Shown here one piece after another: positions 8,010 through 35,828 of a stretch of DNA of 38,579 nucleotides. A program made the translations under genes and the position numbers. Origin of the DNA: Coriobacteriales bacterium (GTDB lineage Bacteria; Actinomycetota; Coriobacteriia; Coriobacteriales; UBA8131); assembly GCA_031272005.1 (NCBI GenBank), contig JAISUQ010000091.1, forward strand, positions 1 to 38,579, given 5' to 3'. Numbering within the stretch: the stretch's first letter is position 1; every line of letters starts with the position of its first letter. A model generated the notes under the pieces. That model saw only the letters and a program-made list of their open reading frames with translations, searched no databases and was not told the DNA's origin.

Positions 8010-10403
8010 ATGTCTGAAGAGTCATATGTCTACACGGCCTGCCCTGGATGGGGTGACCACGATTATTGTGCCATCAAGACGATAGTCAAGGATGGCAGGA
8101 TAGTCCGTACCGAGAAAGCCGACTACACCGGGCCGGAATTCTGTGAGGGCCATATCTGCCAGAAGGGCCTGAGCGCCGGTCGCCAGCCCTACAACCCCAA
8201 CCGCCTGCTCTACCCGCTGAAGCGGGCCGGTGAGCGTGGCGAGGGCAAGTGGGACCGCATCAGCTGGGACCAGGCGCTGGACGAGATTTCAGCCAAGCTG
8301 CTGGAGTTGCGCGAGCAATACGGCCCGGAGTCGCTGGTGATCTGGAACCTGCCAGCCGGCGCGCCGCCCTCCAGTGGGCTATTGGCGCAGATGCCCTATC
8401 GCTTCGGAGGGCTCTGGGGCGCCACCGATCCTTTGCTTTCACAAGGCCTCGATGATGGTCCGATGTACACGCACTTCTACAACTTCGGGCCGGCGGGGCT
8501 GATGTACTTCCTCATCGACCCGGCCAACTTCGACGACGCCAACTTCATCTTCGTCTGGGGCGCCAACCCCATCGAGAACCAGATGCGCATCACCCAGCAC
8601 CTGGTGCGCGCCCGGGCCAAAGGCGCCAAAATCGTGGACATCGGCCTGGTGTTCGACGGCACCGCCGGCTGGTGCGACGAATTCATCGGCGTGGCCCCCG
8701 GAAGCGACGGCTACCTGGCCCTGGCCATGGCCAACTATCTGGTTCAGACCGGCCAATATAAGACCGACTTCCTCACACAACACACCATAGCATGCTATCT
8801 TGTAAGGGATGACGACGGCCAGCTCCTGCGCGACTCCGACGGCAACTTCGTCGTCTGGGATGAGAGCACCAGCGCCCCAGTCTCCGTAGCTCCGCAGAAG
8901 GGTGAGATAACCGCGGCTGCCCCAGCTTTGCTGGGCAGCTTCACGGCGATGGGCGTTGCCACCCAAACCGCCTTCCAGCTGCTGACCAAGCGCCTGACCG
9001 AATACACGCTGGAGGAGGCCGAGCGCATCTCCACAGTGCCGGCAGCCACCATCACCCGCCTGGCCGACGAGTACGCCGCCGCTCCCAACGCCTATCTGCT
9101 GGGCGCCCTGGGGCTGCGCTACATCAACCAGGGCGAGACTTATCGCGCATTCTACATCCTCGGCTTTCTGACCGGCAACCTCGGCCGCCCGGGCGCCGGC
9201 GTCACGGCCGAGCTCATCCCCTGCTGCTATCCCACGGCGTTCAATGACGAGGTCATCACCCGGCCTTTGGGAGCCGAGGGCAACAAGACCAACTGTCTGC
9301 GCATGCACGAGTTCTTTGAGCAGGTCAAGGCTGATGTCATCCCCTATCACGCCTTCATTTGCTCCTCGGGCAACCCCGTGCATCAAAACCCCAATCGGGC
9401 CCGTTGGGACGACTTCTTCTCCAAACTGGAGCTGATTGTCGACATCGACATCTGGATGACCGACACCGGCGAGATGGCCGACTACGTGCTGCCCGACTGC
9501 ATGCCCTTCGAGCGCTACGACCTGATTGCCACCGGCTTCTACAATCATGTGGTGCTGCAGGAGCCAGCCATCGAGCCGCAGGGCGAGGCCCGCGATACGG
9601 TCTATCTGTGGAGTGAGCTGGCCCGCCGCGTTGGCCTGGGCGAGTACTTCGACAAGACCACCGAGGAGTGGATCGCCCTGCGCCTGCAGACACCCTACCC
9701 CCTGATTGCCGGCATCCAGCCGCCGCTGACCTATGAGCGCTTAAAGGCCGAGAAGATGGTGCGGATGGTGGCGCCGGAGTTCCCCAAATTCGACCCCTTT
9801 GCCAGCCTGACCTTCCCCACGCGCACCGGGCGCATCGAGTTTTACAACGAGCAGCTGGTGAGCGTAGGCTTTGAGCTGCCCAAATACTTCCCCTGCTTTG
9901 AGTCGCCGGTCATCGACGGCAACGACCGGCACCCCTATCAGCTGTTCACCGGGCGGCAGCGCTTCTTCATGCAGTCGATGTTCACCGACGACCCCATCAC
10001 CATCCAACTCTCCGGCGGCAAGCCGGCTGTGCGCATGCACCCCGATGACGCTCTGCGCGAGGGCTTCAAGGACGGCGACAAGCTGGAGGTCTATAACGAC
10101 CGCGGGCATGTAGTCTGCGAGTTGAAGGTCGACCAGGCGGTGCCGCCCAAGACCGTGCACGTCTGGTTCGGCTGGCGGCGGCGCCAGTTTGAGGAGGGCA
10201 TGTACAACGAGATGCTGGTGCCCTTAAGCGACGCCGCGATTGTCGACGAGTTGGCGGAGAAGTGGTGGCAGGATTTCGTCGCTGTACGCGGCAAACCGGA
10301 CACGGCAACGATGCCCGACGCCATTCTCACTGGCGCCTGGGATACGATGTGGGATTGCGCCTGCAGCGTGCGACTCTACAACAACGCCGGGAAGGAGGCC
10401 TGA
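8010..10403 (+). CDS. Molybdopterin oxidoreductase catalytic subunit (DMSO reductase superfamily), no Tat signal
   Basis: NPNRLLYPLKRAGERGEGKWDRISWDQALDEI, VDIDIWMTDTGEMADYVLPDCMPFER, TRTGRIEFYNE; AGGAGG before ATG. Confidence 0.9.
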   Translation: MSEESYVYTACPGWGDHDYCAIKTIVKDGRIVRTEKADYTGPEFCEGHICQKGLSAGRQPYNPNRLLYPLKRAGERGEGKWDRISWDQALDEISAKLLELREQYGPESLVIWNLPAGAPPSSGLLAQMPYRFGGLWGATDPLLSQGLDDGPMYTHFYNFGPAGLMYFLIDPANFDDANFIFVWGANPIENQMRITQHLVRARAKGAKIVDIGLVFDGTAGWCDEFIGVAPGSDGYLALAMANYLVQTGQYKTDFLTQHTIACYLVRDDDGQLLRDSDGNFVVWDESTSAPVSVAPQKGEITAAAPALLGSFTAMGVATQTAFQLLTKRLTEYTLEEAERISTVPAATITRLADEYAAAPNAYLLGALGLRYINQGETYRAFYILGFLTGNLGRPGAGVTAELIPCCYPTAFNDEVITRPLGAEGNKTNCLRMHEFFEQVKADVIPYHAFICSSGNPVHQNPNRARWDDFFSKLELIVDIDIWMTDTGEMADYVLPDCMPFERYDLIATGFYNHVVLQEPAIEPQGEARDTVYLWSELARRVGLGEYFDKTTEEWIALRLQTPYPLIAGIQPPLTYERLKAEKMVRMVAPEFPKFDPFASLTFPTRTGRIEFYNEQLVSVGFELPKYFPCFESPVIDGNDRHPYQLFTGRQRFFMQSMFTDDPITIQLSGGKPAVRMHPDDALREGFKDGDKLEVYNDRGHVVCELKVDQAVPPKTVHVWFGWRRRQFEEGMYNEMLVPLSDAAIVDELAEKWWQDFVAVRGKPDTATMPDAILTGAWDTMWDCACSVRLYNNAGKEA

Positions 10404-14489: not shown

Positions 14490-16700
14490 ATGGCTGATAC
14501 GACAATCGAATGGGAAGTTAAACGAGCATCATGTTTCCTCTGTCACTTGAACTGTGGCGTAATATGTACTAAGGAGAATGGGAGGATCGTCAAGATTGAA
14601 GGAGACCCAGATTGCCCGCACAACGAAGGTTTTGTCTGCGCCCGTCTTGAGCAAGATCGGTGGAAGGATTTCGTCTACAATCCCAACCGTTTGAAGAAAC
14701 CACTGAAGCGCATCGGCGAGCGCGGAGCAGGACAATGGGAAGAAATCAGCTGGGAGCAGGCCTTTGATGAAATGGCTGAGAAACTTGCCGCATTACGTAA
14801 TGAGTACGGCGCCGAAACCCTCTGCTTCTTAGAAGGAACCTATCGGACACAGTCGAACTTGCACTATAAGTTCACCAACTTGTTCGGCACTCCGAATACT
14901 GGGGGCAACGGTACAATTTGCTACAGCAGCGATATGTGGCTTGAGCCCTGTACCTATGGAGGTTTCTGCTCGGACAAGTCCGACTGGAAACGTGCCGACC
15001 TCATTGTACTCTGGGGCCGCAACCCGGCCGTATCTGAACAACTTTGTTGGGAGTGGGTTGTAAAGAATATCGAGGAGCGAGGCGCGAAATTACTCGTCAT
15101 TGACCCGCGGTACTGCGAAGCTGCCCAAAAGGCCGACCTCTACCTGCAAATCCGTCCCGGCACTGATTCAGCATTGGCTATGGGCTTTATCAACATCATC
15201 ATCGAAGAAGGCCTCTACGACCATGAGTTCGTCGAAGAGTGGTGCTATGGTTTCGAAGAGATCAAGGAACGGGCGAAGGAATACCCGGTTGCCAAGGTCT
15301 CTGAGATTACCTGGATATCTGAGGAAAAGATTATCGAAGCTGCGCGACTTTATGCCAGCATCAAGCCGGCCTGCATGCCGTGGGGAGAAAAAGGCGGCGA
15401 TGGTTGCGGCGTTAATGCAACGAGCGCCATTCGGGCAAAAGCGATATTGCGCGCCATCACTGGCAACATCGATGTAATCGGCGGCGACCAGTTGACGATG
15501 CCCTCCGATCGCGGTGATTCGGATATGCAATACAATCACAACAGCCTCTCGCAAGAGCAGCGTGACAAGATGATTGGCAATAACGTGCACCCCGGTCTGA
15601 CTTTCAAGGGATGGGATTTGATTTCCAAGGCCTATCCTCGGTTCTACCCGTACAGCAACGCGCCGCTGATGTTCAGGGCGATGATTACAGGCGATCCTTA
15701 TCCCGTCAAGGCCTGTATCGTGCAAGCCGACAACCCGATGCTCTCTTACTCGAATTCCAAGCTCGTCTACGAAGCCCTCACCAGCCTTGAGCTTCTCATT
15801 GTCAACGATTTCTTCATGACACCGACGGCAGCCATCGCCGATTATGTCCTCCCTGCAGCAACTTGGCTGGAACGCTGCAGCATTGGATATCCCACCATGG
15901 ATGTCGAGCAGGTGAGCATGAATGGCACCTTGCCGGTGCTGGAGCGTTTCGAAGGCGGCGCCGATATCGATTTCCGTGATGATTACGAATTCTGGTACGG
16001 CCTTTCAGAGCGTCTGGGCTTCGCCGATGAATGGTGGGGGCCTTCGATGGTCGATATGTTCAACGATACGGTTGCCCACTTTGGTATGAACTTCAAGGAC
16101 TTCAGCGAGAACGTTAAATACCTCAGAGTCCCCAACGCTCCTGAGAAGTATAAAGCGGAAGGCTTCAAATTCCTCACCCCAACAGGCAAAGTCGAACTCT
16201 ATTCGACCATTATCGAAGAACTCGGCGAAGGGTATGACCCCCTTCCCGGCTTCGAGTATCCGCCATACTTCCCAGAAGTGAATCCGGAACACGCTGAAGA
16301 GTATCCGCTTTCGATGATTACCGGCGCTCGCTTCATGCCCTTCTACCATACCGAGCACCGCCAGCCTGGTGCCTATCGCGACCTGCATCCCGACCCAATC
16401 TTCGACATCCATCCGGATACCGCCATGAAGCTCAATATCGCTTCGGGAGATTGGTGTTGGATCGAAACCCCCTTGGGACGTATCAAGCAACGCGCCCGCA
16501 CGACTACGATATTGGACCCGCGGGTTATCTCCGTCCAGCACGGCTGGTGGTTCCCCGAACTACCCGAGACGGATCTTTTTGGGGTATTCGATTCGAACAT
16601 CAACGCGATACTCGACGACTCTCCGGAAGTCCTCGATTCGTTGATGGGCGCTTGGCCGAATACAGGTTTGTATGCCAAGGTCTACAAAGTTGAGGATTAG
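14490..16700 (+). CDS. Acetylene-hydratase-like molybdopterin/tungstopterin enzyme (soluble, [4Fe-4S])
   Basis: CFLCHLNC cluster motif; LAMGFINIIIEEGLYDHEFVEEWCYGFEEIKERAKEYPVAKVSEIT and NDFFMTPTAAIADYVLPAATWLERC resemble recalled Pelobacter acetylene hydratase; GGAG RBS. Confidence 0.85.
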   Translation: MADTTIEWEVKRASCFLCHLNCGVICTKENGRIVKIEGDPDCPHNEGFVCARLEQDRWKDFVYNPNRLKKPLKRIGERGAGQWEEISWEQAFDEMAEKLAALRNEYGAETLCFLEGTYRTQSNLHYKFTNLFGTPNTGGNGTICYSSDMWLEPCTYGGFCSDKSDWKRADLIVLWGRNPAVSEQLCWEWVVKNIEERGAKLLVIDPRYCEAAQKADLYLQIRPGTDSALAMGFINIIIEEGLYDHEFVEEWCYGFEEIKERAKEYPVAKVSEITWISEEKIIEAARLYASIKPACMPWGEKGGDGCGVNATSAIRAKAILRAITGNIDVIGGDQLTMPSDRGDSDMQYNHNSLSQEQRDKMIGNNVHPGLTFKGWDLISKAYPRFYPYSNAPLMFRAMITGDPYPVKACIVQADNPMLSYSNSKLVYEALTSLELLIVNDFFMTPTAAIADYVLPAATWLERCSIGYPTMDVEQVSMNGTLPVLERFEGGADIDFRDDYEFWYGLSERLGFADEWWGPSMVDMFNDTVAHFGMNFKDFSENVKYLRVPNAPEKYKAEGFKFLTPTGKVELYSTIIEELGEGYDPLPGFEYPPYFPEVNPEHAEEYPLSMITGARFMPFYHTEHRQPGAYRDLHPDPIFDIHPDTAMKLNIASGDWCWIETPLGRIKQRARTTTILDPRVISVQHGWWFPELPETDLFGVFDSNINAILDDSPEVLDSLMGAWPNTGLYAKVYKVED

Positions 16701-18968: not shown

Positions 18969-19065
18969 GGAGATGGATGGTCCCTGGTGGGGCCCGCGGC
19001 CTTCAAAGCCGTTGCGGGGCGTGAAGAGCGTCCTGGGTGCGTTCGATTCGCACGCATCTCCGCCA
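18969..19065 (+). tRNA. selC: tRNA-Sec (anticodon TCA)
   Basis: GGAGATGG...; 6-bp D stem GGTCCC/GGGCCC; anticodon arm GCGGC-CTTCAAA-GCCGT; long variable arm GGGGCG/CGTCCT; T arm GTGCG-TTCGATT-CGCAC; CATCTCCGCCA; 97 nt. Confidence 0.95.
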
Positions 19066-20049: not shown

Positions 20050-21231
20050 TTATCGGCAGTCTTTGTTGGCAATTATAGCTTCCAGGGCATCCAGCAAGGC
20101 GGTGATTTCGTCGGGTCGGGTCTGGGTGCTGAAGCTGACGCGATAGGTGCTGAAGGAGTACTTCAATGGCACCCCGGCAGATTGCAGTACCTGCTGCCGT
20201 TTGGGACGCCAGGTGCCCGCTGCCACGTTCTCGGCGTTATTCTCGCAGGCTGATGCTGTGGAGATAAAAATCCCACGATTGCTGAGGGCGTCCAGCACCT
20301 GGCGATTGTTGGTGTTTGGCAACGTGAAGTTGACCAGGTAGGGAGAGCCGTCATCGCGAGAATTGATCAAGACGTCGGCAAAGCGCTCCTTCAGGCCTCC
20401 CACCAGCTGTTCCCAGAGCTGACGAGCGCGCTGTTCGGCTTTGATGCGCTGGGCAAAGGTAATGCGCACGGCGGCAGCAAAACCGGCAATCAGCGGCACG
20501 GCCTCGGTGCCGGAGCGCAGCCAGCGCTCCTGACCGCCACCGTGGGCGGTGGTGTACATCTTCACACCACTGCGTACATACAATGCCCCGACGCCTTTGG
20601 GGCCGCCAATCTTATGTGCGGAGATACTGGCCAGATCGACTCCCAGCTGGCGGGGGAAGAACTCCAGCTTGCCGTAGGCCTGCACGGCGTCGGTATGCAC
20701 CAGAGCCTCTGGTGCCAGCTCGTTGCGCCGGGCGACGACGCTCTCCAGATCCATGCGGTAGCCCAGCTCGTTTTGCACCAGCATCGCCGAGACCAGCGCC
20801 GGCTGGGCGGCCATGGCAGCGGTGAGCTGTTGCTCGGCCAACTGACCACCCTCCGCCTCCAGATAATCTATCCGCCAACCCTGACGCTTGAGGTTGCGGA
20901 CCGGCTTGGTCACCGAGGCGTGCTCCAGAGTGGTGGTCAACAGATACAGTGGCTGAGAGGCCCCAGCCGCTATCGCCCAGGCAGCGCCGTGCAGCGCCAG
21001 GTTGTTGGATTCGGTGCCGCCGGAGGTGAAGTAGATCTCGCTTTGGTCCACTCGCAGCGACGCAGCCACTATACTGCGGCTTTCCTCCACCAGCATGCGG
21101 GCATCGCGACCGAGAGCATGGCGCGACGAGGGATTGCCCCAGGTCTGCTCCATGGCTTCAGAAACAGCCGCCACCACCTTGCCGTAGGGCTTGGTGGTGG
21201 CGGCGTTGTCCAGATAAATCAACTGTGGCAT
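20050..21231 (-). CDS. Cysteine desulfurase (NifS/IscS class)
   Basis: IYLDNAATTKP, YFTSGGTESNN, HTDAVQAYGK, SAHKIGGPKGVGALYV, STASACEN. Confidence 0.9.
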   Translation of the reverse strand: MPQLIYLDNAATTKPYGKVVAAVSEAMEQTWGNPSSRHALGRDARMLVEESRSIVAASLRVDQSEIYFTSGGTESNNLALHGAAWAIAAGASQPLYLLTTTLEHASVTKPVRNLKRQGWRIDYLEAEGGQLAEQQLTAAMAAQPALVSAMLVQNELGYRMDLESVVARRNELAPEALVHTDAVQAYGKLEFFPRQLGVDLASISAHKIGGPKGVGALYVRSGVKMYTTAHGGGQERWLRSGTEAVPLIAGFAAAVRITFAQRIKAEQRARQLWEQLVGGLKERFADVLINSRDDGSPYLVNFTLPNTNNRQVLDALSNRGIFISTASACENNAENVAAGTWRPKRQQVLQSAGVPLKYSFSTYRVSFSTQTRPDEITALLDALEAIIANKDCR

Positions 21232-22962: not shown

Positions 22963-25900
22963 CTATATCTTCTCGACGTTTACCAGAAACGCCTTGTACT
23001 CGGGAATATAGCTGTTGGGGTCGCCGACATTGGGGCTGAGGTCGTTGACTGTGTCGCCGGTGGAGTAATCGCCGGTCCAGTCCCAGTGGTGGATCATACC
23101 CACCAGATGGCAGACCTCGCCGTTGACCTGCAGTGGGCGCAGACGCCGGGTGACAAAGGCGGTCAGCTGTACGTCGCCGCGGTTGTTCCAGACCCGCACC
23201 TTGTCGCCGTTGGCGATGCCTTTCTCCTCGGCCAGCTCTACACTCATCTCGATGAACTGATCGGGCATCGCCTCTACCAGCACCGGGCAGCCACGCGTCT
23301 GGGCGCCGGTCTGCCAGTGCTCGACCACCGAGTAGGTGGTGGCAGCAATCGGGAACTCGCTGCGGTCGCCCTTCTGTACCGAGGGGTGGTCGGCGAACAT
23401 GATGCAGGGCGAGTTCTGGCGGCCGTTGAGGATGTTGTCAGTGGGCGACTCCAGCGGCTCGTAGTGCTCCGGCAGCGGCATATCCTTCATGGTGGAGCAG
23501 ACGAAGCGGGCGTTTTGCTCCCAGGTCATCATGAAGGCCTTGTTGTTCGGCGGTACCGGCACCGAGGTGCCGTCGGCGGCGGTGGAGGCGGCCACGAAGT
23601 CGGGCACGTCGTTGTTGTCCCATTTCTCGCCGGTCCACTCCACGACCTTGCGGGCCGGGTTCCAGGGCTTGCCTTCCATGTCGGCCGAGGCCCGGTTGTA
23701 GAGCACGCGCCGGTTGACCGGCCAGGCATAGGCCCATTCCTGATAGAGCCCCAGGCCGCCCTTGTCCTCCAGGCTGCGCTTACCGACGTTTTGCTGCGAG
23801 GGGTCATAGCGCGCCTCGCTGTTGCCGTAGAATCCGGAGTAGATCCAGATGGCGCAGGCCGTGGTGCCGTTGGCCTGGAGATTGGCAAAGGTGGTGAGCA
23901 GTTCGCGGCTGTCCCAGTCGCCGTCGTCGCCGGGCTGCTTCTTGTAGCCGTTCAAGGCCATGGCCACGGCCCGGGGGTCGATCTGGCCGTCGATGTGGTA
24001 GTCCCACTTGACGTTGAGAATCGGCTCGGGGCAGGCCCCGCCCTCATCGGTGTAGAGGCTGGTGATCTGCTTCCAGAGCCGGTCGCAGATCTCGTAGTCC
24101 GGCAGGGCTTCATCCGCCGGGTCCAGCGCCTTGTAGCGCCACTGCAGCCAGCGGCCGGAGTTGGCGATGGTGCCGCTCTTCTCGTAGATCAGCGCCGCCG
24201 GCAGGTGGTAGACCTCGGTCTGGATCTGCGCGGGGTCCAGGTCCGGAGCCTTCCAGAAGGCGGCTGTGGCCGTCTCCACCCAGTCCACCGAGACCAGCCA
24301 GTCCAGCTTGGACATCGCCTGGCGGGCGAACTTGGCGTTGGGCGTGGAGTTCATCGGGTTCATACCCCAGGCAAAGTAGCCCTTGATTATGCCCTCGTCG
24401 ATCAGCTCGAAGGTGGAGATGGTGGTGTAGTCGCGGCTGCCGATCTTGGGCAGCCAGTCGTAGCCGTAGTCGTTGTCGGCGGTGGCATTGTCGCCGAACC
24501 ACTCCTTGAGCGCCGAGATGAAGAACTTCGGCTTGTTGACGTAATAGCCATCGCTGTAGGTCTCATGCTCCAGCCATTCGCGCAGCGTGGAGTGGCTGGC
24601 GACCGTGGGCCACTTCAGGTAGCCGGGGAAGTCGTAGACCAGCATGGCCATGTCGGTGGCACCCTGGACATTGGGCTCGCCGCGCAGGGCGTTGACGCCG
24701 CCGCCGGCCACTCCGACGTTGCCCAGCAGCAGCTGCACCAGGCTCATGATGCGGGTGTTCTGCGAGCCGTAATGGTGCTGGGTCTGGCCCAGGGCATAGA
24801 GGATGGCGCCGGACTTCTCCGGAGCACCGCTGGAGGCGTAGGTGGCATAGACCAGCTCCAGGGTCTCTCTGTCCATACCGCAGACGTTGCAGACGGTGTC
24901 GAGGTCGTAGCGGCTGTAGTGCTCCTTGAAGACGTTGAAGGAGCAGAGCGGGTCGCTCAGGGTCGCATCCTTTTTGGGTACCAGTTTGGATGGGGGAGTA
25001 AACTCGGGCACGCCCTCGCCCAGTGTGTAGGCAAAGGCCCCGCCGGTGGCGGTGTTGGGCGCCACGGTTTCCTCCGTCTGATAACCCCAGGTGGTGGTGA
25101 CGTACTTCTTATGCTCCTCGTCCCAGCCGGAGAACAGGCCGGTGGTGACGTCGAAGTTGTAGTCGGGGTTGATCAGGTAGGTGGCGTTGGTGTAGTTGAG
25201 CACGTATTCGTGCTGCCAGAGGTCGTGTTCGATGATGTAGTTGATCATCCCGCCCCAGAAGGTGATGTCGGTACCGGAGCGCATCGGGCAGTAGATGTCG
25301 GCCACGGCCGCCGTGCGCGTGAAGCGCGGGTCGACGACGATCCAGGTGGCGCCATTGTCCACAGCCGTGTGGCACCAACGGGCGCTTTCGGGGTGGTTCT
25401 CGACATTATTCGAACCGCAGGAGATGATTACATCGGCGTTCTTGAAGTCGCACCAGTGCCCCGTCATGGAGCCGCGACCAAACGTGTTCGCCAGACCGGC
25501 GACAGTAGAGCTGTGTCAAACACGCGCTTGATTATCGAGCGCGACCACCCCCAAAGAACGCATCGTCTTCAAGATCAAATAATCCTCTTCGCAATTCTGC
25601 TGACTGCCGCCCAAAGAGGCGATGGCCTCGGTGCGGTTGACGGTGACGCCATTCTCGTCCTGCTCGACGAAGGTGGCGTCGCGGGTCTCCTTGACGTGGC
25701 GGGCAATCTCCAGGATGGCCTGGTCCCAGGACAGCTGTTCCCACTCGGAGGCGCCGGGGCGGCGAACCAGTGGGTGGGTTTTGCGGTTGGGGTTGTGGAT
25801 GACTTCGCGGGTCTCCTCGGTGATGACGTTGCGCAGCTGGAACATCGAAGCGCCCTTGGCGCACAACCCACCCTGGTTGATGGGATGGTCGCTGTCGCCT

Positions 25901-26118
25901 TCCAGGTTGATCAGCTCATTATCCTGTACCGAGACAATCGTTCCACAGCCACCTGAACAGTAACAGCAGATGTTGGTGAACTCTTCGGTGTTTACCAGCC
26001 GCCAGTCCAGATCATCGGCGAAGGCCAGAGTGCTGGACTGGGTTGCCAGCCCATAGGCCATACTGGTGCCAAAAGCCAGGCCAATCGACTTGACGAAGCT
26101 TCTGCGTGTCAGATCCAT
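22963..26118 (-). CDS. fdnG: Formate dehydrogenase alpha subunit, selenoprotein (Sec at UGA 25516-25518), Tat signal
   Basis: N-terminal ORF (MDLTRRSFVKSIGLAFG Tat signal) ends ...VALDNQARV-UGA-HSSTVAGLANTFGRGSMTGHWCDFKNADV...; frame continuous with the 22963..25467 ORF; matches the FdnG/FdoG Sec context. Confidence 0.95.
25488..25502 (-). promoter_or_regulatory. Bacterial SECIS hairpin of fdnG
   Basis: On minus strand UGA-(13 nt)-TCGCC-GGTCT-GGCGA; loop GGUCU and spacing as in the E. coli fdhF SECIS. Confidence 0.85.
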
Positions 26119-26431: not shown

Positions 26432-27589
26432 ATGATCTATTTCGACAACGCGGCGACAACGCTGGCCAAACCACCTGGAGTGCTGACGGCTGTGCAGCAG
26501 GCCCTGGGCAGTTTTGGCGCTGCCGGACGGGGTGCGCATACGGCATCTCTGGCAGCCGGGCGGGCGATATATAAGGCTCGGGAGCGGGTGGCCTGGCTGT
26601 TGGGGGCCCCCAGTCCCCAGCGGGTGGCTTTTTGCGCCAATGCCACCGAGGCGCTGAATATCGTGCTCAGCTCACTGGCGCGGCCGGGCAGTCATGCTCT
26701 GACCACCGCAGCTGCGCATAACTCCATTCTGCGGCCACTTTATCGGCAGGCTGAGCGAGGCGCCCGGATGTCGATTCTGCCGGTGGCAGCGGACGGCTCG
26801 ATAGACTACGCAGCCTTTGCCGATTTGTTTGAAGCTGATACCAACCTGGCGGTGGTGACGCATAATTCCAATGTCACCGGTGATGTTTACGACATCGCCC
26901 GGATGGCCGAAATCTGTCATGCCCATGGTGCACTGCTGGCTGTGGACGCCGCCCAGACTGCCGGCATATTGCCTCTGGATATGGCGGAGATGGGCATCGA
27001 CATCCTGGTCTTTACCGGGCACAAGGGGTTGTATGGCATTCAGGGCACCGGGGGCCTGTGCCTGGCTGAAGGGGTGGAACTGGAGCCATTGGTGGTTGGC
27101 GGCTCGGGCCTGCACAGCTTTGATCATCAGCATCCCACGCTGATGCCGGAGCGGCTGGAGGCCGGAACAGCCAACGCCCATGGGTTGGCGGCGCTGGCTG
27201 CCGGCTGCGACTACCTGATTGAAGTTGGCGTGGCCGAGGTGCGCAGTCAGTCCCTGGTATTGGCCCGCCACTTCGAGGCCGGGGCCCGGCGCATCCCGGG
27301 AGTGCGAATATACGGCGGCCAGGCTGATGTACAGCGCAGTCCGATCGTGGCCCTGAATGTCGGCTCGGAGGACTCAGCCGCCATCAGCGACCGCCTGGAT
27401 ATGGAGTACGGCATCTGCACCCGACCCGGCGTGCACTGCGCGCCGCTGATGCACGAGGCTTTGGGCACAGCTGAGCAGGGAGCAGTGCGCTTCAGCTTCT
27501 CGCATCTCAATACTGTAGCGGAAGTAGACAAGGCACTTGCGGCTCTGGAGCAGGTCAGCCAGACGAGGAAGAGATCCAGATGCAGCTGA
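26432..27589 (+). CDS. Aminotransferase class V: cysteine desulfurase / selenocysteine lyase-like (selenium-cluster type)
   Basis: MIYFDNAATTLAKPPGV, FCANATEALN, VDAAQTAGILPLDM, FTGHKGLYGIQGTGGL, GICTRPGVHCAPLMHEALGT. Confidence 0.88.
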   Translation: MIYFDNAATTLAKPPGVLTAVQQALGSFGAAGRGAHTASLAAGRAIYKARERVAWLLGAPSPQRVAFCANATEALNIVLSSLARPGSHALTTAAAHNSILRPLYRQAERGARMSILPVAADGSIDYAAFADLFEADTNLAVVTHNSNVTGDVYDIARMAEICHAHGALLAVDAAQTAGILPLDMAEMGIDILVFTGHKGLYGIQGTGGLCLAEGVELEPLVVGGSGLHSFDHQHPTLMPERLEAGTANAHGLAALAAGCDYLIEVGVAEVRSQSLVLARHFEAGARRIPGVRIYGGQADVQRSPIVALNVGSEDSAAISDRLDMEYGICTRPGVHCAPLMHEALGTAEQGAVRFSFSHLNTVAEVDKALAALEQVSQTRKRSRCS

Positions 27590-27804
27590 TTGTGACCTTT
27601 GCCTCCACCGCTGCCGCCATGGCCATGGAAGCATACTGCCGCAGCGCCGGTGTGCCCGGACGCATCATCCCGGTGCCGACGCAGATCTCGGCCGGCTGCG
27701 GCCTGGCCTGGAGTGCTCCTTTGGATAGCAAGCTCGTAATCGAGCAAGCGTTGCTGGACTGCCAGCTGGCAGCGGTTGGCCTGCACGAATTGGAACTGCC
27801 ATGA
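27580..27804 (+). CDS. DUF3343 protein (putative Se/S carrier-like)
   Basis: MQLIVTFASTAAAMAMEAYCRSAGVPGRIIPVPTQISAGCGLAW; overlaps neighbours at both ends. Confidence 0.75.
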   Translation: MQLIVTFASTAAAMAMEAYCRSAGVPGRIIPVPTQISAGCGLAWSAPLDSKLVIEQALLDCQLAAVGLHELELP

Positions 27805-28808
27805 AGCCCCATACCGCACCTGGCCAGTTGGGCCAGATTGGTTTATCGGCCGCAGTGCAGCCAGCGGCTTCGGAGGCCGCACCGCAGCTTGGGCGGCCAG
27901 CCGCGCCAGCTTCGCCAATCGCGCCAATCGCGCCAACCGCGCCAACCGCGACTGGCCAATATCGCATCGGAATCGACATCGGCTCCACCGTCGCCAAGGC
28001 GGCAGTTCTCGATGCAACCGGCGAGCTTATCCACACCTTATCGCTGCCCACCGGCTACAGCAGCGTAGATGCGGCTGAACGCCTGGCCGCTGCCCTGGCG
28101 GCGGACGGCTTTGCGGTCGGCGAATTGCCGGTGCTGGCTACCGGATATGGTCGCATCTCCGTGCCCTGGGCCAGTGCCGTGGCTACCGAGATCACCTGTC
28201 ATGGGCGCGGCGCGGCCTGGCTGTTTGGCCCGGACGGTGTGGTGCTCGACATCGGCGGGCAGGACACCAAGGTCATCTGTCTGGCTGCGGGCAAGGTGCG
28301 CCGCTTCCTGATGAACGACAAGTGCTCTGCGGGCACCGGGCGGTTTCTGGACATCATGGCCGATCGTCTGGGCCTGAGCCCGGATGGGCTGGCGGAGCTG
28401 GCCGCCACAGGTCGGCCTGCCGCCATCTCCTCGATGTGCACGGTCTTTGCCGAGTCTGAAGTGATTTCGCTGATTGGCCAGGGCACGCCGCGCGCTGATA
28501 TCGCCTGTGGCCTGGTGGAGTCGGTGGTTACCAAGGTGGCTTCGCTGGCGGCGCAGATGCCGGGGGATGTCTATTACCTCACCGGAGGCTTATGCGAGAA
28601 CAGCTATATGCTACAGCGTCTATCGGTGCAGTTGGGTACAGAAGTGCAGTCTGTGCCACTGGCACGTTATGCCGGTGCCATCGGCGCAGCTTTACTTATT
28701 GATACCGGTCAAATAACAGATAATGCCGAATTGGGAGCAGATCAGCTGGTAGCGGGTCAGAAAGCGCATCAGCGGTCGAACGCAGAGAAAGCAGGAGGTT
28801 CATGGTAA
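27801..28808 (+). CDS. Acyl-CoA dehydratase activase-type ATPase (HgdC/BcrA/BadF family)
   Basis: YRIGIDIGSTVAKAAVLDATGE, DIGGQDTKVICL, FLMNDKCSAGTGRFLDIMADRLG; Ala/Pro-rich N-terminal extension. Confidence 0.88.
   Translation: MKPHTAPGQLGQIGLSAAVQPAASEAAPQLGRPAAPASPIAPIAPTAPTATGQYRIGIDIGSTVAKAAVLDATGELIHTLSLPTGYSSVDAAERLAAALAADGFAVGELPVLATGYGRISVPWASAVATEITCHGRGAAWLFGPDGVVLDIGGQDTKVICLAAGKVRRFLMNDKCSAGTGRFLDIMADRLGLSPDGLAELAATGRPAAISSMCTVFAESEVISLIGQGTPRADIACGLVESVVTKVASLAAQMPGDVYYLTGGLCENSYMLQRLSVQLGTEVQSVPLARYAGAIGAALLIDTGQITDNAELGADQLVAGQKAHQRSNAEKAGGSW
27912..27950 (+). repeat. 9-bp in-frame tandem repeat in activase N-terminus
   Basis: TCGCCAATC GCGCCAATC GCGCCAACC GCGCCAACC GCG. Confidence 0.9.
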
Positions 28809-30010
28809 CGCAAACAACAGTCAGCAGTCCAAAAGCGGCAACAGCGGCATCGGCGGCAACAGCCCTGCCCGATCATTTCGAGGCCTTTGCCGACGCCCGC
28901 AAGCTGAGTTTCATCAAGGCCAAGGAGTTCAAGGAGTCCGGCGGGCGCCTGGCTGGCTACCTCTGCTCCTTCGCACCCCTGGAGGCCCTGGACGCCGGCG
29001 GTCTGGCGGCGGTGGGGCTGTGTGGCACCAGCAACGAGACGGTCCCCGACGCCGAGACCGTACTGCCCAAGAACCTCTGCCCGCTGATCAAGAGCACCTA
29101 CGGCTTCGCCCTGACTCAGAAGTGCCCCTTTACCTACTTCTCCGACATCATCATCGGTGAGACCACCTGCGACGGCAAGAAGAAGATGTACGAGTTGCTG
29201 GCCGACCTCAAGCCGGTTTACGTGCTGCAACTGCCCCAGGGACAGCAGCGGCCTTACGCTGCCGAAATCTGGAAGAAGGAGCTGGAGCTGTTCATCGCCG
29301 AAATCGAGCAACGCTTTGCCGTGCAGATCGACGATGCCGCACTGCGCCAGGCGGCAACCCGGCGCAACCGCCTGCGCCAGGCCCTGGTTGAGCTGTATGC
29401 CCTGCAGCAGGCCACACCGCCGATGATGTCGGGCGTGGAGATCATGACAACCATCCTCCAGGGCGCCTTCAGCTTCGATATCGAAGAATATACGGAGAAG
29501 CTGCAGGCTCTGGTGGCGGAGAAACGCGCCGCCTACGCCGCCGGCCAGCGCCCTGTAGCGGCCAGCGCCAGGCGGATTCTGCTGACGGGCTGCCCCTCCG
29601 GCGGCCTGGTGCAGAAGGTCGGCATGGCCATTGAGGAGAACGGCGGCGTGATAGTCTGCCTGGATGACTGCATGGGTGAGCGCACCAACAGATTGATGGT
29701 CGACGACCAGGCTGAGGACATCTGTCAGGCCATCTCCGACCGCTACCTGGAAATCCACTGCGCGGTGATGTCGCCCAACGCCACCCGACAGGATAATCTG
29801 CTGGAGTTGATCAAGCGCTACCAGGTGGACGGCGTGATTGAGCTGGTGCTGCAGGCCTGCCACCCCTTCAATATCGAGTCCGCGCACATCTCCACATTGC
29901 TGGAGCAGCATGACATACCTTACATGAAGCTGGAGACCGATTATTCGCCCAGCGACAGCGGCCAGCTGCAGACCCGTATCGCAGCGTTTATCGAGACCCT
30001 GGCCCAGTAG
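28802..30010 (+). CDS. 2-hydroxyacyl-CoA dehydratase subunit D/HgdB family; likely double-cubane-cluster-type anaerobic reductase
   Basis: GYLCSFAPLEALDAGG, NLCPLIKSTYGF, GETTCDGKKKMYE, LTGCPSGG, ELVLQACHPFNIES; paired with activase; GGAGG RBS. Confidence 0.85.
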   Translation: MVTQTTVSSPKAATAASAATALPDHFEAFADARKLSFIKAKEFKESGGRLAGYLCSFAPLEALDAGGLAAVGLCGTSNETVPDAETVLPKNLCPLIKSTYGFALTQKCPFTYFSDIIIGETTCDGKKKMYELLADLKPVYVLQLPQGQQRPYAAEIWKKELELFIAEIEQRFAVQIDDAALRQAATRRNRLRQALVELYALQQATPPMMSGVEIMTTILQGAFSFDIEEYTEKLQALVAEKRAAYAAGQRPVAASARRILLTGCPSGGLVQKVGMAIEENGGVIVCLDDCMGERTNRLMVDDQAEDICQAISDRYLEIHCAVMSPNATRQDNLLELIKRYQVDGVIELVLQACHPFNIESAHISTLLEQHDIPYMKLETDYSPSDSGQLQTRIAAFIETLAQ

Positions 30011-30099
30011 CTGTCGCCAGACGGCAATGATAAGCCGACGGCAATGGAAGGCCGCGGGAAGGAAGCAGAAAGCGACAGCAAGCGACAGGAGGAAAGACG

Positions 30100-30813
30100 A
30101 TGGAGAGAATTGATGCAGTTGGCCTGGCTTGTCCCAAGCCGGTGATGCTGGCCAAGGCGGCCATCGACGCCGGGGCTGGGGAGTTGGAAGTGGCGGTGGA
30201 TAACCAGACCGCGACCGAGAATTTGAGCAACCTGGCCCGACGCCTGGGCTACACCGCTGAGGTGACAGAGCCGGAGCCGGAGCGGTTCTTGGTGACGTTG
30301 GCGCGCAATGGTGAGGCTGCCGGCGCAGCAGCGCCCGCCGCCACCGCCATCGCCGCCGAACCCGCGCCCACCGCCGCCGCCGCCCCTACCGCCGCACCCA
30401 CCACCGCCGCCGCCCCTACCGCCGCGCCCACCACCGCGCCCGCGCCCGGGCTTGCGCAGGTGCAACCTGGCCTCGGCAGCCACGTGGTGTTCGTCGGCAA
30501 GCGCTGCGTCGGCGCCGGGGATGAGCAGCTGGGCTACAACCTGCTGAAGATGGCCATCTATGTGCTGGCGGCCGCCGACGAGGCGCCGGCGGCGCTGCTG
30601 TTCATGAACGACGGCGTCAAGCTGCCCGCCGGCGACGACGAAGATGTCCTCAACGACCTGCGCAAACTGGTGGAGCGGGGCAGCGAGGTGCTGGTCTGCG
30701 GCACCTGCCTGAACCACTACGGCCTGGCCGAGGGCCTCAAGGTCGGCACAGTCAGTAATATGTACGACATCCTGGGGCGGATGCAGCAAGCCTCCCAGAC
30801 CATCACGCTTTAG
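30100..30813 (+). CDS. yedF: YedF: TusA-like domain + DsrE-like domain, selenium metabolism sulfurtransferase-like protein
   Basis: IDAVGLACPKPVMLAKAAID (TusA CPxP) and C-terminal GYNLLKMAIYVLAAADEAPAALLFMNDGVKL...LVCGTCLNHYGLAEGLKVGTVSNMYDI. Confidence 0.88.
   Translation: MERIDAVGLACPKPVMLAKAAIDAGAGELEVAVDNQTATENLSNLARRLGYTAEVTEPEPERFLVTLARNGEAAGAAAPAATAIAAEPAPTAAAAPTAAPTTAAAPTAAPTTAPAPGLAQVQPGLGSHVVFVGKRCVGAGDEQLGYNLLKMAIYVLAAADEAPAALLFMNDGVKLPAGDDEDVLNDLRKLVERGSEVLVCGTCLNHYGLAEGLKVGTVSNMYDILGRMQQASQTITL
30370..30433 (+). repeat. About 30-bp in-frame tandem duplication in YedF linker
   Basis: ACCGCCGCCGCCCCTACCGCCGC(A/G)CCCACC x2, encoding TAAAPTAAPT repeats. Confidence 0.75.
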
Positions 30814-30824
30814 AAAGGCAGGAG

Positions 30825-31937
30825 ATGAGCAGAGAAGAGCGGCTGCGGCTGACAGCCCATACTTCCAAGGGTGGTTGAGCCGCCAAGTGGGCTCCGGGCG
30901 AGCTTATGGCCATATTAGCAAGCATTGCTCCGCAGCCTGAGGCTGGAAAAACGCCCCCGCAATCGGCCATGTGCCCCGACCCTAATCTGCTGTTGGGCTA
31001 CGACACCAGCGACGACGCCGCCGTCTACCGGCTCAGCGACGAGCTGGCCGCCGTGCTGACAGTGGACTTCTTCACGCCGATGGTCGACGATCCCTACATC
31101 TTCGGACGCATCGCCGCCGCCAATGCCTTAAGCGACATCTACGCCATGGGCGCCCGGCCGGTGGCTGCCCTCAATCTGCTGGCTTTTCCGCCGGCGCTGG
31201 GGGCAGCGGCGGCAGCCGATGTGTTGCGCGGCGGGCGCGACGCCGTAGCCCAGGCCGGTGCCAGCGTAGCCGGCGGGCACACCATCGAGGACGACGAACC
31301 CAAGTACGGGCTGGCAGTGATGGGCCTGGTGCATCCGGAGCGCATCATGCTCAACTCCGGCGCCCAGGCCGGTGACGTGCTCTACTACACCAAACCTCTG
31401 GGTATCGGCATCATCATGGCGGCGCTCAAGGCCGGGTTGCAGGATGAGCAGGGTGCCGCCGCCGTGCTGGAGGCGATGATGACGCTCAATGACCACGCCG
31501 CCACGGCGATGCTGGCCGCCGGAGCCCACGCTGCCACCGACGTCACCGGCTTCGGCCTGGTGGGGCACCTGCATGAGTTGCTGGCCGCCAGCGGTCAGGC
31601 CGCCATTCTCCACAGCAGCGCTCTGCCGACCTTCGATGGCGTGCTGGAGTGCTCGGCAGCCTTCTGCCGCCCGGGCAAGAGCTTCGAGATCATCAACTGG
31701 GCTGAGCCCTTCCTGACGCGGGCCATCGCCGACGATGACTGCTATGAGAACCTGCTGGGAGTCATCTGCGATCCCCAGACCAGCGGCGGGCTGCTGGTGG
31801 CCTTGGCGCCGCAACAGCAGCAGCTGTTCGTCAGGACCTTTGCGGAGCTGGCAGGTTATCAGCCCTGGAAGATTGGCGAGGTCATCTCCGGACAGCCAGG
31901 TCAGATAATCCTGGCGCAGCAGGCCGGGGAGCAGTGA
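30825..31937 (+). CDS. selD: Selenide, water dikinase; selenoprotein with Sec at UGA 30876-30878
   Basis: In-frame upstream extension MSREERLRLTAHTSKGG-U-AAKWAPGELMAILASIAPQ...; the SelD active-site Cys/Sec motif (LTxxxxxGGC/UxAKxxPxxL); ORF track starts late at 30906. Confidence 0.9.
30889..30905 (+). promoter_or_regulatory. SECIS-like hairpin downstream of selD UGA
   Basis: GGGCTC-CGGGC-GAGCTT (4 W-C plus 2 G.U pairs), about 12 nt after the UGA. Confidence 0.5.
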
Positions 31938-32031
31938 GAGCAGGCCTGTGCGGCGTGCCTCTGCGGGTACTGAATGCAAGCATCAACAGGTACACAGCAG
32001 TAATGCTACTGCAGGACGGGGAGAGAAACGG

Positions 32032-33609
32032 ATGTCTGAACAACAGGAATTGCTGAGAATGATACCCTCGGTCGACCGCGTCTTAGGCGAGCTGTTTGCC
32101 ATAGCTCCCAAGGTCACGGCCTTCTTGCCGCATGACCCGCTGGCGGATCTGGTGCGCTCCAGGACCGATGCCGTGCGCGAGTGGCTGTGCAGCGGCCAGT
32201 CGCCAACGCATCTGGACGAGCCGCAGATTATGGAGATGATCGTCGAGCAGGTCTGTGCCGCGTCACACCTCTCTCTGCGCCCGGTGGTCAACGCCACCGG
32301 CGTCATCCTGCACACCAACCTCGGGCGCAGCTGCCTGGCCGAGCGGGCGGTGGAGGCAATCAGCCAGGTGGCCCGGAACTACTCCACATTGGAGTATGAT
32401 ACCGCCAGTTGCCAGCGCGGCTCGCGGCAGTCGCATTGTGCCCGGATGCTCAGTGCGCTGACCGGCGCCGAGGATGCCATGGTGGTCAACAACAACAACG
32501 CCGCCGCCGTGATGCTGGTGCTGGCAGAGTTCGCCGGCTACCAGGCGGGCTGCGGCGAAGTGATCATCTCCCGGGGCGAGCTGGTGGAGATTGGCGGCTC
32601 CTTCAGGATTCCCGACATCATCGCTCAGACCGGCGCCCGGATGGTGGAGGTGGGCACCACCAACAAGACCCACCTGGCTGATTACCAGCGGGCCTTGAGC
32701 AGCCGCACGGCGCTGATAGCCAAGGTCCATCCCTCCAACTTCCACATCGTTGGCTTTACCGAGTCGGTTGGCATCGCCGAGCTGGCTGCCCTGCGCGACG
32801 ACTTCGCCCAAGAGTCGCCAGCGGACAGCGCTAACGGCGATGCCGCCGCGGTCCTGCTCTACGAGGATCAGGGTGCTGGGCAGTTGTTCGAGCTGCCCAT
32901 CAAGGGGGCGCACAGCGAGCCGATAGTCTCCCGTTCCATCGCCCAGGGCGCCGATTTGGTGAGCTTCTCCGCCGACAAGCTGCTGGGCGGCCCACAGGCC
33001 GGCATCATCGTCGGTCGGCGCGAGCTGCTCAGTCGCCTGAAGGCCAATCCGCTGGCCCGCGTGCTGCGCCCGGATAAGCTGACCCTGGCGGCGCTGGAGG
33101 CAACCCTTTGCATCTGCCTGGATGAGAAGGCTGCCTTTGCCGAGATACCGACCTTGCGGATGCTGACCATGGATCAGGACACCCTGAGCCAGCGGGCCGA
33201 GGAACTCAGCGAGCTGTTGGCGGTAGTACTGCCCGAGGGGTGCTGCACTTTCTCAGTGGAGGATTCCCTGGCGATGGTCGGCGGCGGCTCATTGCCAGTA
33301 TGCGAGCTACCTAGCAAAGCCGTTGCTGTGCAACCAGCAACCGGCAATCTTCAGGCTCTGGAGGCTCACCTGGCCGCTCGGCCGGCGATGCCGATCATCG
33401 CCCGTAAGAGCAATGACTATCTGCTGTTCGATGTGCGCACGCTGCGCAGCCAGGATGAGCTGTCCGAAATCGCCATGGGCCTCAAGGAATACTTTGCCGG
33501 CCTGGGGCTGGAGAAGACCGAGCCGCCGCGAGCCCGGAAGCGCTTGAAGCCCCGGGCCCAACGACAGGCGGCCCAACAACAGGCGGCCCAACAGCAGGCG
33601 GCCCGATGA
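32032..33609 (+). CDS. selA: L-seryl-tRNA(Sec) selenium transferase
   Basis: [76 protein letters not shown] 32032 after GGGGAGAGAAACGG. Confidence 0.95.
33565..33609 (+). repeat. 15-bp x3 tandem repeat spanning the selA stop/selB start
   Basis: CAGGCGGCCCAACAA / CAGGCGGCCCAACAG / CAGGCGGCCCGATGA. Confidence 0.95.
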
Positions 33610-35765
33610 GCGCCGCTGCCGAGTCGCTGACTGCGGCTGGCGCATCTGCAGCGGCTGATGGTTTGGAGCCTCCAGGCTCGCCCAAGCCGGCTGGCAGGCT
33701 CGAGGTCGCCGCCGCGCCGCAGACATCTGGCGCGCCCGGGGCGCCCGAGGCGCCTGCCGCGCCGCAGACATCTGGCGCTGCTGGGGCCGCTGGGGCGCCG
33801 GACCAGGCACTTCTCCCAACCCTGATCCTCGGTACTGCCGGGCATATCGACCACGGGAAGTCGGCATTGGTCAAGGCGCTGACCGGTACCGACCCCGACC
33901 GCCTGGCCGAGGAGAAGCGCCGCGGCATCACCATCGAGCTGGGGTTTGCCCAACTGACGCTGCCCAGCGGTGCGACCATGGGGATAGTCGATGTGCCCGG
34001 CCATGAGCGCTTCGTGCGCCAGATGATGGCCGGGGCCAGCGGCGTGGATGTGGCGCTGCTGGTGGTGGCCGCCGACGATGGCGTCATGCCCCAGACCCGC
34101 GAGCACCTGACCGTGCTGGAGATGCTCGACGTCCAGCGCTTGGTGGTGGCCCTGACCAAGATGGACAAGGTTGATGCCGAATGGGCGGAGCTGGTGCAGG
34201 CTGAGCTGGAGGACTTCCTGCAGCATTCGGCCTATGCCGGAGCGCCGGTTGTGCCGGTCTCGGCGGTCACCGGCCAGGGCCTGGACGCCCTGCTGGCGGC
34301 TATCGAGCGCACAGCCGATGCCACCGTGGCACATGATGAAGCTGCCGCAGCGCGGTTGGCTGTGGATCGGGCCTTCACCATCAAGGGCGCCGGCACCGTG
34401 ATTACCGGCACGCTGTGGACGGGCCAGATTGCCGAGGGTCAGATGCTGGAGATCATTCCCGGAGTCAGGCAGGTGCGCGCCCGCAGCGTGCAAAGCCATG
34501 GTGTGCCGGTGGCGTTGGCCCATGCCGGTTCGCGGGTGGCGCTGAATCTGGCTGGCGTCAAACCCAGCGAGGTGGCGCCGGGTTGCTTTGTGGCCGCACC
34601 CGGATTGCTCACTCCCAGCGATCGTCTGGATGTGCGCGTCCGCCATCTGGGAGCCCGCCTGCTGAAAAGCGGTGCCCGGGTGCGCATCGCCCACGGTACG
34701 CGGGAGGTCCTGGCGCGGCTGCTGTTGATGACAGGTGAAGCCGCCGATGGCCCTGGCGAGCAGCTGCAACCCGGCGAGATAGCCCTGGCCCAGCTGCGCC
34801 TGGATGAGCCTCTGGCGCCGTTGCCCTTCGACCGCTTCGTGATGCGCTCCTACTCCCCGGTGACGGTCATCGGTGGCGGCCTGGTGCTGGCCGTGCACCC
34901 CAGGCGGCGCACTACCCTTAAAGACGCCGAGCGGCAACTGCTGGAGGCCCTGGAACAACATGAATATAAGATAGCAATAGAAAAAGCTATTGAATTGGCG
35001 GCAGTACCGGTCTCCCTGGCCAGCCTCAGTGCTCAGACCGGGTTGGAGCCGGCGCTGATAGCCGCCATTCTGCCCCAGGTGAAGCTGCAGGAATTGCCCA
35101 GCGCTCCTCTCGACTGCCCGAAGCATTATGCTCCCGAGCCATTGCAACGCTCCCTGCTGGCCAACCTGGAGACCTGCCTGTTGAACTTCCACAGCGCCAA
35201 CCCGCAACTCACAGGTCTCAGCCTGGCAGCGTTGGCGGCGGCATTCAAGCCCGGGGCGACTGGGGCGACTGTGGGCAGATTGGATGAGCAGGCCTTCAAA
35301 GCCCTGGTGAATGCGGCTCTGGCCGCCGGCTTTGCCGTCTATCACGCAGGGGAGATCAGCCATGGTCGCTTTGGAGCCGGAGCCCGGCAATTGGTGCAGC
35401 AGGCCGCCGAGGCTTTGGGCCAGCTGTTGGCCCAGGCCGGCCCGACTCCACCAGCTGTCGAGCAGCTGCCGGCTCTGCTCGGCCTGGACAAGACGCTGAC
35501 CCACAAGGCGCTGGGACAGCTGGAGGCCGCCGGCTCAGTCGAACGGCTCCCCGGAGGTTTTGTCTTCGATGCTGCGGCCTATGCCAGCCTGCGCGACAGC
35601 GCCCTGGACTACCTGGGCAGTCACGGCCCCGCCACAGCGGCCGCGCTGCGCGAGGCCATGGGCGTCAGCCGTAAATACGCCATCCCTCTGCTGGAGCACT
35701 TCGACGCCCAGAACCTGACCAAACGCCAGGGCGACCTGCGCACCCGCGGCAGCCGCAGCCGGTGA
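33606..35765 (+). CDS. selB: Selenocysteine-specific elongation factor SelB with Ala/Pro-rich N-terminal extension
   Basis: [69 protein letters not shown]-terminal winged helices; ATGA overlap with selA. Confidence 0.95.
33711..33778 (+). repeat. 45-bp-period direct repeat in selB 5' coding region
   Basis: GCCGCGCCGCAGACATCTGGCGC at 33711-33733 and 33756-33778, encoding AAPQTSGA twice. Confidence 0.9.
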
Positions 35766-35792: not shown

Positions 35793-35828
35793 CGACCCCG
35801 CTCAGGCTTGCGGGGTCGATTCTTGTTG
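35793..35828 (+). terminator. Intrinsic terminator of the selenium operon
   Basis: CGACCCCGC-TCAGGCTT-GCGGGGTCG followed by ATTCTTGTT. Confidence 0.8.

Follow-up and report, generated by a model that had tools for sequence, protein, structure and literature searches.

The closest described relatives of the system reported here are the double-cubane cluster proteins (DCCPs), in which an activase and ATP drive very-low-potential electrons into a cluster and small molecules are reduced, with acetylene, azide and hydrazine as substrates in vitro (PMC11971306). Known structures and in vitro activity are on record for these proteins, and no physiological role was assigned to them in the 2025 literature (PMC11971306). 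The present analysis concerns an activase gene and a gene for an HgdB-like protein that lie among selenium genes in a stretch of 38,579 nucleotides from a Coriobacteriales bacterium (GenBank assembly GCA_031272005.1, contig JAISUQ010000091.1, positions 1 to 38,579 of the forward strand; the whole stretch is called the window). The HgdB-like protein was assigned to the DCCPs, and bacteria with a DCCP were found to be almost always selenium users. The source of selenide for bacterial SelD is poorly defined and DCCP has no known job; a replicated genome-level tie between them makes both questions testable.

Described systems and the DCCP of the window

The DCCP of C. hydrogenoformans and its reductase (DCCP:DCCP-R; 6ENO, 7YYL, 7YZM, 7YZQ) are, like the window pair, a single-gene HgdB-like subunit with an activase, and the two DCCPs share 138 of 360 aligned residues and all eight invariant cysteines. 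They differ in their surroundings, no SelD, SelA, SelB or YedF having been found beside the 22-row subtree of the C. hydrogenoformans protein. In E. coli K-12 MG1655, the same DCCP-activase-DUF3343 trio forms one operon (yjiM-yjiL-ytiA), in which the Cys-Gly of DUF3343 is kept; the annotation of a second E. coli strain names the ytiA product as a DUF3343 protein. The window DCCP is nearer to YjiM (46% identity) than to the biochemically studied enzyme of C. hydrogenoformans; however, the E. coli trio is not beside sel genes, and its record assigns no function. As yjiM is present in 5,345 of 5,426 complete E. coli genomes, the question can be tested in a model organism where DCCP is near-universal. 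DCCP was detected in only 2 of 198 genomes of an Enterobacterales sample, too few to inform on co-occurrence. Benzoyl-CoA reductase (BzdNO/BzdPQ) belongs to the same superfamily, has an ATP-driven activase and uses the same six cysteines for the BzdN [8Fe-9S] cluster, but is a heterodimer acting on a CoA-ester substrate.

A link between DCCP and selenium has already been noticed in print, and in the literature surveyed it is, as far as shown, neither quantified nor explained. Among the selenium candidates named by Lin et al. 2015 are YedF and DUF3343. In Table 1 of that paper, the STRING partners of YedF/DUF3343 in Slackia include the activase and a '2-hydroxyglutaryl-CoA dehydratase subunit'; no discussion of these two was found in the text surveyed (PMC5322559). 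The selenium region of Slackia heliotrinireducens thus resembles the window (selenocysteine (Sec) lyase, DUF3343, YedF, SelD, SelA and SelB, with the two STRING partners), a likeness in gene content, the partners being known from the table listing. DCCP was described as 'provisionally linked to selenium metabolism' by Kountz & Balskus 2023 (PMC10418091) and is unmentioned in reviews of 2022 and 2026. The original prediction, made from the letters of the window, had presented the system as one not recognised as biochemically described; the literature surveyed likewise gave no biochemical description, and the selenium link itself is not quite unrecognised.

The HgdB-like protein is assigned to the genuine DCCPs on family models, cysteine alignment and predicted fold. 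It scored 474.7 bits (474.6 in the whole-genome scan) against NF040772, the curated equivalog model of double-cubane anaerobic reductases (cut-off 350), and 71, 87 and 55 bits against the acyl-CoA models HadC, BzdN and BcrC (cut-offs 700, 454 and 421). The closest solved proteins were the C. hydrogenoformans DCCP (6eno) and its activase complex (7yyl), with an E-value of 5e-80, followed far behind by BzdN (2e-24). The AlphaFold2 (AF2) model had a predicted local distance difference test (pLDDT) value of 93.5, and its top five PDB fold matches were all DCCP chains (Foldseek, template modelling scores 0.87-0.88). Residues Cys55, 93, 123, 290, 320 and 353 align with the BzdN cluster ligands Cys36, 73, 100, 263, 293 and 327 and with the C. 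hydrogenoformans DCCP, and are 99-100% conserved among 188 DCCPs. Cys74 and Cys108 are equally conserved among DCCPs and have no cysteine counterpart in the BzdN alignment, and may take part in substrate handling. By its sequence, the protein would be expected to hold an [8Fe-9S] cluster and to show the ATP-dependent small-molecule reduction of the DCCP class.

No alpha-subunit partner was present among the NCBIfam matches of the scanned open reading frames (ORFs), in keeping with a single-subunit DCCP, and the genome (82.6% complete) contains one NF040772 match only. The gene overlaps by 7 bases that of a dedicated activase, which matches the acyl-CoA dehydratase activase model TIGR00241 (205.6 bits, cut-off 125.4), keeps the ATPase motifs and has two cysteines (Cys175 in MNDKC and Cys213 in SSMC) aligned with two conserved cysteines of HgdC. 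The original prediction of a double-cubane-type reductase with its activase was therefore confirmed by NF040772, the six cysteines, the DCCP fold and TIGR00241, and a grouping with genuine 2-hydroxyacyl-CoA dehydratases was checked and not found, with models, cysteines and gene content all pointing to DCCP.

The pair belongs to a run of eight plus-strand genes (26432-35765), separated by overlaps or by gaps of at most 90 bases and encoding a Sec-lyase-like enzyme, DUF3343, the activase, the HgdB-like protein, YedF, SelD, SelA and SelB. Further overlaps join the Sec-lyase-like and DUF3343 genes (10 bases) and the DUF3343 and activase genes (4 bases). The sequence scan gave no plus-strand promoter-like site inside the operon, and a terminator-like stem follows selB. 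No acyl-CoA pathway gene appeared among the NCBIfam matches of the 16 main window ORFs scanned, 5 of which had no NCBIfam match at 1e-20. The coordinates and overlaps first given for the genes of 27580-30010 proved exact, and the pair's proposed membership in the selenium operon and the lack of acyl-CoA genes around it were likewise upheld.

Association of DCCP with selenium genes across genomes

Co-occurrence was assessed in 250 genomes drawn evenly from the Bacillota_A-type phylum of Clostridium intestinale, of which 78 had a DCCP over the cut-off; many of the genomes surveyed here and below are incomplete metagenome-assembled genomes. SelD was present in 76/78 genomes with DCCP versus 91/172 without (Fisher p 2.6e-14), and YedF in 77/78 versus 64/172 (p 1e-23), so that DCCP is tied more tightly to YedF than to SelD. 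The difference persists among SelD-positive genomes, YedF accompanying SelD in 76/76 genomes with DCCP and in 58/91 without. The selD gene missing from one of the two exceptions (G273) is probably lost in an assembly gap, because yedF lies directly after DCCP there (locus L171). The association was repeated in Lactobacillales (SelD in 13/13 genomes with DCCP versus 38/186 without, p 5.8e-9), where SelA was found in 11 of the 13, so that the tie of DCCP to Sec decoding is not a strict one. Among the window's own relatives, SelD occurred in 5/5 genomes with DCCP versus 9/36 without (p 0.003); the window genome is the only DCCP carrier among the 25 genomes sampled in its family. Of 50 named genomes with DCCP, 47 had SelD; all except four of the 50 had been picked because no SelD, SelA, SelB or YedF gene lies near their DCCP. 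Among 14 well-known genomes used as controls, only E. coli and M. jannaschii had DCCP, and the same two had SelD. The negative control AsrA (a subunit of anaerobic sulfite reductase) showed no association with SelD (14/22 genomes, odds ratio 0.86, p 0.81). Association with selenium genes across genomes, which the original prediction had set as a test, thus holds.

Gene neighbourhoods were compared at 169 loci (the 80 named DCCP loci nearest to the window and 89 loci of the phylum sample), using neighbour models that were built from our own clusters and spot-checked only. SelD, SelA, SelB or YedF lay within about 10 kb of DCCP at 29/80 named and 13/89 phylum-sample loci, the latter count rising to 29/89 when Sec-lyase-like, LysR_Sec or DUF3343 genes were included; by our estimate, at a genome size of about 2.7 Mb, any one single-copy gene would lie within 10 kb by chance in less than 1% of cases. 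Gene order is shuffled between loci, for instance DCCP-activase-selD-LysR-SecLyase-yedF-DUF3343-selB in Lacrimispora and SecLyase-yedF-DUF3343-DCCP in Sporomusa. DUF3343 directly adjoins DCCP or the activase at 28/169 loci and lies within 3 kb at 45/169. Regulators of the LysR_Sec_metab type were found nearby at 20/169 loci by our own model, and four of the five that were checked exceeded the NF040786 cut-off. Other recurrent neighbours were corrinoid proteins with MtaA-like methyltransferases, and GrdA; together with the LysR regulators and the transporters described below, they fit sulfur/selenium metabolism. Some loci carry two DCCP-like genes per cluster, sometimes with DUF3343 between or beside them (L034, 7337-11137; L063, 9331-11908; L084, 9992-12780), possibly encoding heterodimers. 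SaoX substrate-binding proteins over the cut-off adjoin DCCP at L144 (3950-5083), L152 (870-2138) and L171 (3925-5079).

The selenium-linked state, mapped on a tree of 187 labelled DCCPs, requires 27 changes, 23 of these changes being forced by well-supported branches, versus 45 with shuffled labels. Gain or loss of the linkage has therefore occurred repeatedly, and it does not go back to a single inherited accident. The window DCCP sits in an 18-row set in which all are linked. A single selenium clade of DCCP was rejected on the 23-27 changes of state, and the special HgdB clade originally supposed gives way to a link that runs through the whole DCCP family, YjiM of E. coli included.

Proposed role in selenide supply and its alternatives

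DCCP probably helps to make reduced selenium, because it sits in a selenium operon and its carriers almost always use selenium. The reading that we prefer, with a probability of about one half, follows the original prediction of selenide formation for SelD: DUF3343, activase and DCCP would together form a module of selenium assimilation, an ATP-driven reductase of very low potential that gives selenide for SelD. The [4Fe-4S] cluster of the activase dimer would be reduced by ferredoxin or flavodoxin, ATP hydrolysis by the activase would drive electron transfer onto DCCP's [8Fe-9S] double cubane, and DCCP would reduce a selenium species to selenide, the SelD substrate. In the window operon, the likeliest substrate would be zero-valent selenium, either present as Cys-S-Se(-) or set free by the Sec-lyase-like enzyme, with DUF3343 and YedF as carriers; at other loci, with transporters for organic sulfur or selenium or with methyltransferases, organic selenium may be the source. 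The standard potential of the Se/H2Se couple is -0.40 V, from which we estimate about -0.7 V for the standard state at pH 7 and, with HSe- at micromolar concentration, about -0.5 V, which is lower than the potential of thiols. Reduction of Se0 requires a strong reductant (PMC9820544). Cys-S-Se(-) is the form in which Sec lyases leave selenium, and SelD may take up free selenide through its Sec/Cys (PMC3266270). More tentatively, the proposal may be widened to the whole family, YjiM-YjiL-YtiA included, with DCCP:DCCP-R as an ATP-driven selenide generator that would reduce zero-valent selenium on DUF3343/YedF (stemming from Sec lyase, selenite reduction or Se0) to HSe- for SelD, and where ATP would be spent because the potential of the Se0/selenide couple is lower than that of the usual reductants of the cell. 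If the proposal is true, selenium assimilation in many anaerobes spends ATP on very-low-potential electron transfer.

Several points weigh against selenide supply by the trio. DCCP is not obligatory for selenium use, since 91 SelD-positive genomes of the phylum sample are without it, and Enterococcus pingfangensis (L101) has DCCP and activase and no SelD over the cut-off, possibly a true exception. At 76/89 phylum-sample loci, no SelD, SelA, SelB or YedF is near, and the subtree with the characterised C. hydrogenoformans DCCP has 0/22 selenium-linked members. Thiols could reduce carrier-bound perselenides with no need for ATP. The genome counts are uncorrected for shared ancestry, the bulk surveys cover three clades only, and the AsrA control is small.

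Alternatively, DCCP might act on organic compounds taken up by the cell (such as selenocystine, methylated selenium or sulfonate-like compounds) and free selenide by reductive cleavage of their C-Se (or C-S) bonds. The nitrogenase-like MarHDK cleaves C-S bonds, and TudS, a member of the DCCP superfamily, strips sulfur from a thiolated nucleotide. Such a role would account for the recurrence near DCCP of SsuABC-like or SaoX transporter genes (12/80 named and 12/89 phylum-sample loci), cystine-type ATP-binding cassette (ABC) transporters (9/80 and 2/89) and MtaA-like/RACE methyltransferase genes (8/80 and 6/89), and Kountz & Balskus assign mlp clusters to methyl-selenide. We hold it to be rather unlikely: no transporter or methyltransferase adjoins DCCP in the window, and the most widely shared partner is YedF (77/78), a sulfur/selenium-transfer protein, not a transporter.

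It is also unlikely that DCCP is a general low-potential reductase or scavenger of toxic small molecules that has nothing to do with selenium, and that SelD accompanies it because both favour the same anaerobic lifestyles. The many loci lacking a selenium gene near DCCP (none of the tested families at 47/89 phylum-sample loci) would agree with such a role, as would the in vitro substrates (PMC11971306) and the down-regulation of DCCP under CO in Calderihabitans; but shared lifestyle would not lead one to expect that AsrA, another anaerobic enzyme, is unassociated with SelD in the same genomes, that the tie to YedF is tighter than that to SelD, that the association is repeated in Lactobacillales or that the DUF3343 gene is kept in the E. 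coli yjiM operon.

Organometallic or mercury chemistry with selenocysteine-assisted organometallic (SAO) proteins, whose selenoproteins rather than selenide supply would then make the selenium link, is highly improbable: SaoX stands beside DCCP at L144, L152 and L171, and SaoP is the best match, below its cut-off, of a permease in L085, but no SAO genes were seen in the window and few of the DCCP loci tested have them. A last possibility, that an acyl-CoA dehydratase or reductase lies in the operon by chance, is barely credible and was rejected, since the shared superfamily (PF06050) is countered by the NF040772 score against those of HadC and BzdN, a single subunit with no adjacent alpha partner, six intact double-cubane cysteines and the absence of any acyl-CoA gene among the nearby NCBIfam matches.

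Partner proteins and other features of the window

Table 1. Coordinates of the selenium operon and related features in the window.
Feature	Position	Strand	Basis
tRNA-Sec (selC)	18969..19065	+	
fdnG-like formate dehydrogenase alpha, Sec TGA 25516-25518 (RVUHSSTV)	22963..26118	-	divergent from operon
Sec-lyase / cysteine-desulfurase-like pyridoxal phosphate (PLP) enzyme (TIGR01977 type)	26432..27589	+	ORF, family models
DUF3343 / Se_S_carrier	27580..27804	+	PF11823, homologue alignment, AF2
Activase ATPase (DCCP reductase, HgdC/BcrA type)	27801..28808	+	TIGR00241; PDB 1hux, 4eht, 7yyl_E
Double-cubane cluster protein (DCCP), HgdB-like, 402 residues	28802..30010	+	NF040772, 6eno/7yyl, AF2, Cys conservation
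YedF (TusA + DsrE domains)	30100..30813	+	TIGR03527, 170 bits (cut-off 110)
SelD, selenoprotein, Sec TGA 30876-30878	30825..31937	+	TIGR00476, in-frame TGA
SelA	31948..33609	+	translation; window protein detects SelA at other loci
SelB	33606..35765	+	translation; detection at other loci
Terminator-like stem-loop, 9 pairs (8 G-C), operon end after selB	35793..35818	+	

The DUF3343 protein matches PF11823 (Se_S_carrier) with 72 bits, and its Cys40-Gly41 is invariant in an alignment of 20 homologues. Its AF2 model (mean pLDDT 95.5) is ACT/PII-like, with no significant PDB structure match, and the protein had no PDB sequence match. The product of the first operon gene scored just under the cut-off of the cysteine desulfurase family TIGR01977 (370 versus 377 bits) and well below that of the SclA model NF040779 (314 versus 525 bits), and from these scores would be better described as a TIGR01977-type desulfurase or Sec-lyase-like enzyme than as SclA; it carries a PGVHCAPLMH segment, where such enzymes hold the catalytic cysteine. 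A second, NifS-like cysteine desulfurase (20053-21231, minus strand) lies close to the selenium genes and the fdn operon. The activase ORF begins with an Ala/Pro-rich low-complexity extension of about 50 residues (27801-27960) that is absent from solved relatives, and its true start may be internal. Similarly, the SelA ORF starts with a GTG at 31948, but translation may in fact begin at the ATG near 32032.

SelD is itself a selenoprotein, because selD, starting near 30825, reads through the in-frame UGA (motif TSKGGUAAKWAP); an ORF call from the ATG at 30906 truncates the gene. This, like the tRNA-Sec of the window, is new relative to the original prediction. Simple folding of the regions 3' of the selD and fdnG UGA codons, as candidate Sec insertion sequence (SECIS) hairpins, did not stand out from shuffled sequences (z -0.40 and +1.02), and an Rfam scan of the window returned no bacterial SECIS, only two tRNAs. 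Two more molybdopterin oxidoreductases (8010-10400 and 14490-16697) score under the cut-off of every named NCBIfam model. The genes selA, selB, selC and selD and the two selenoprotein genes (selD and fdnG) cluster within about 17 kb.

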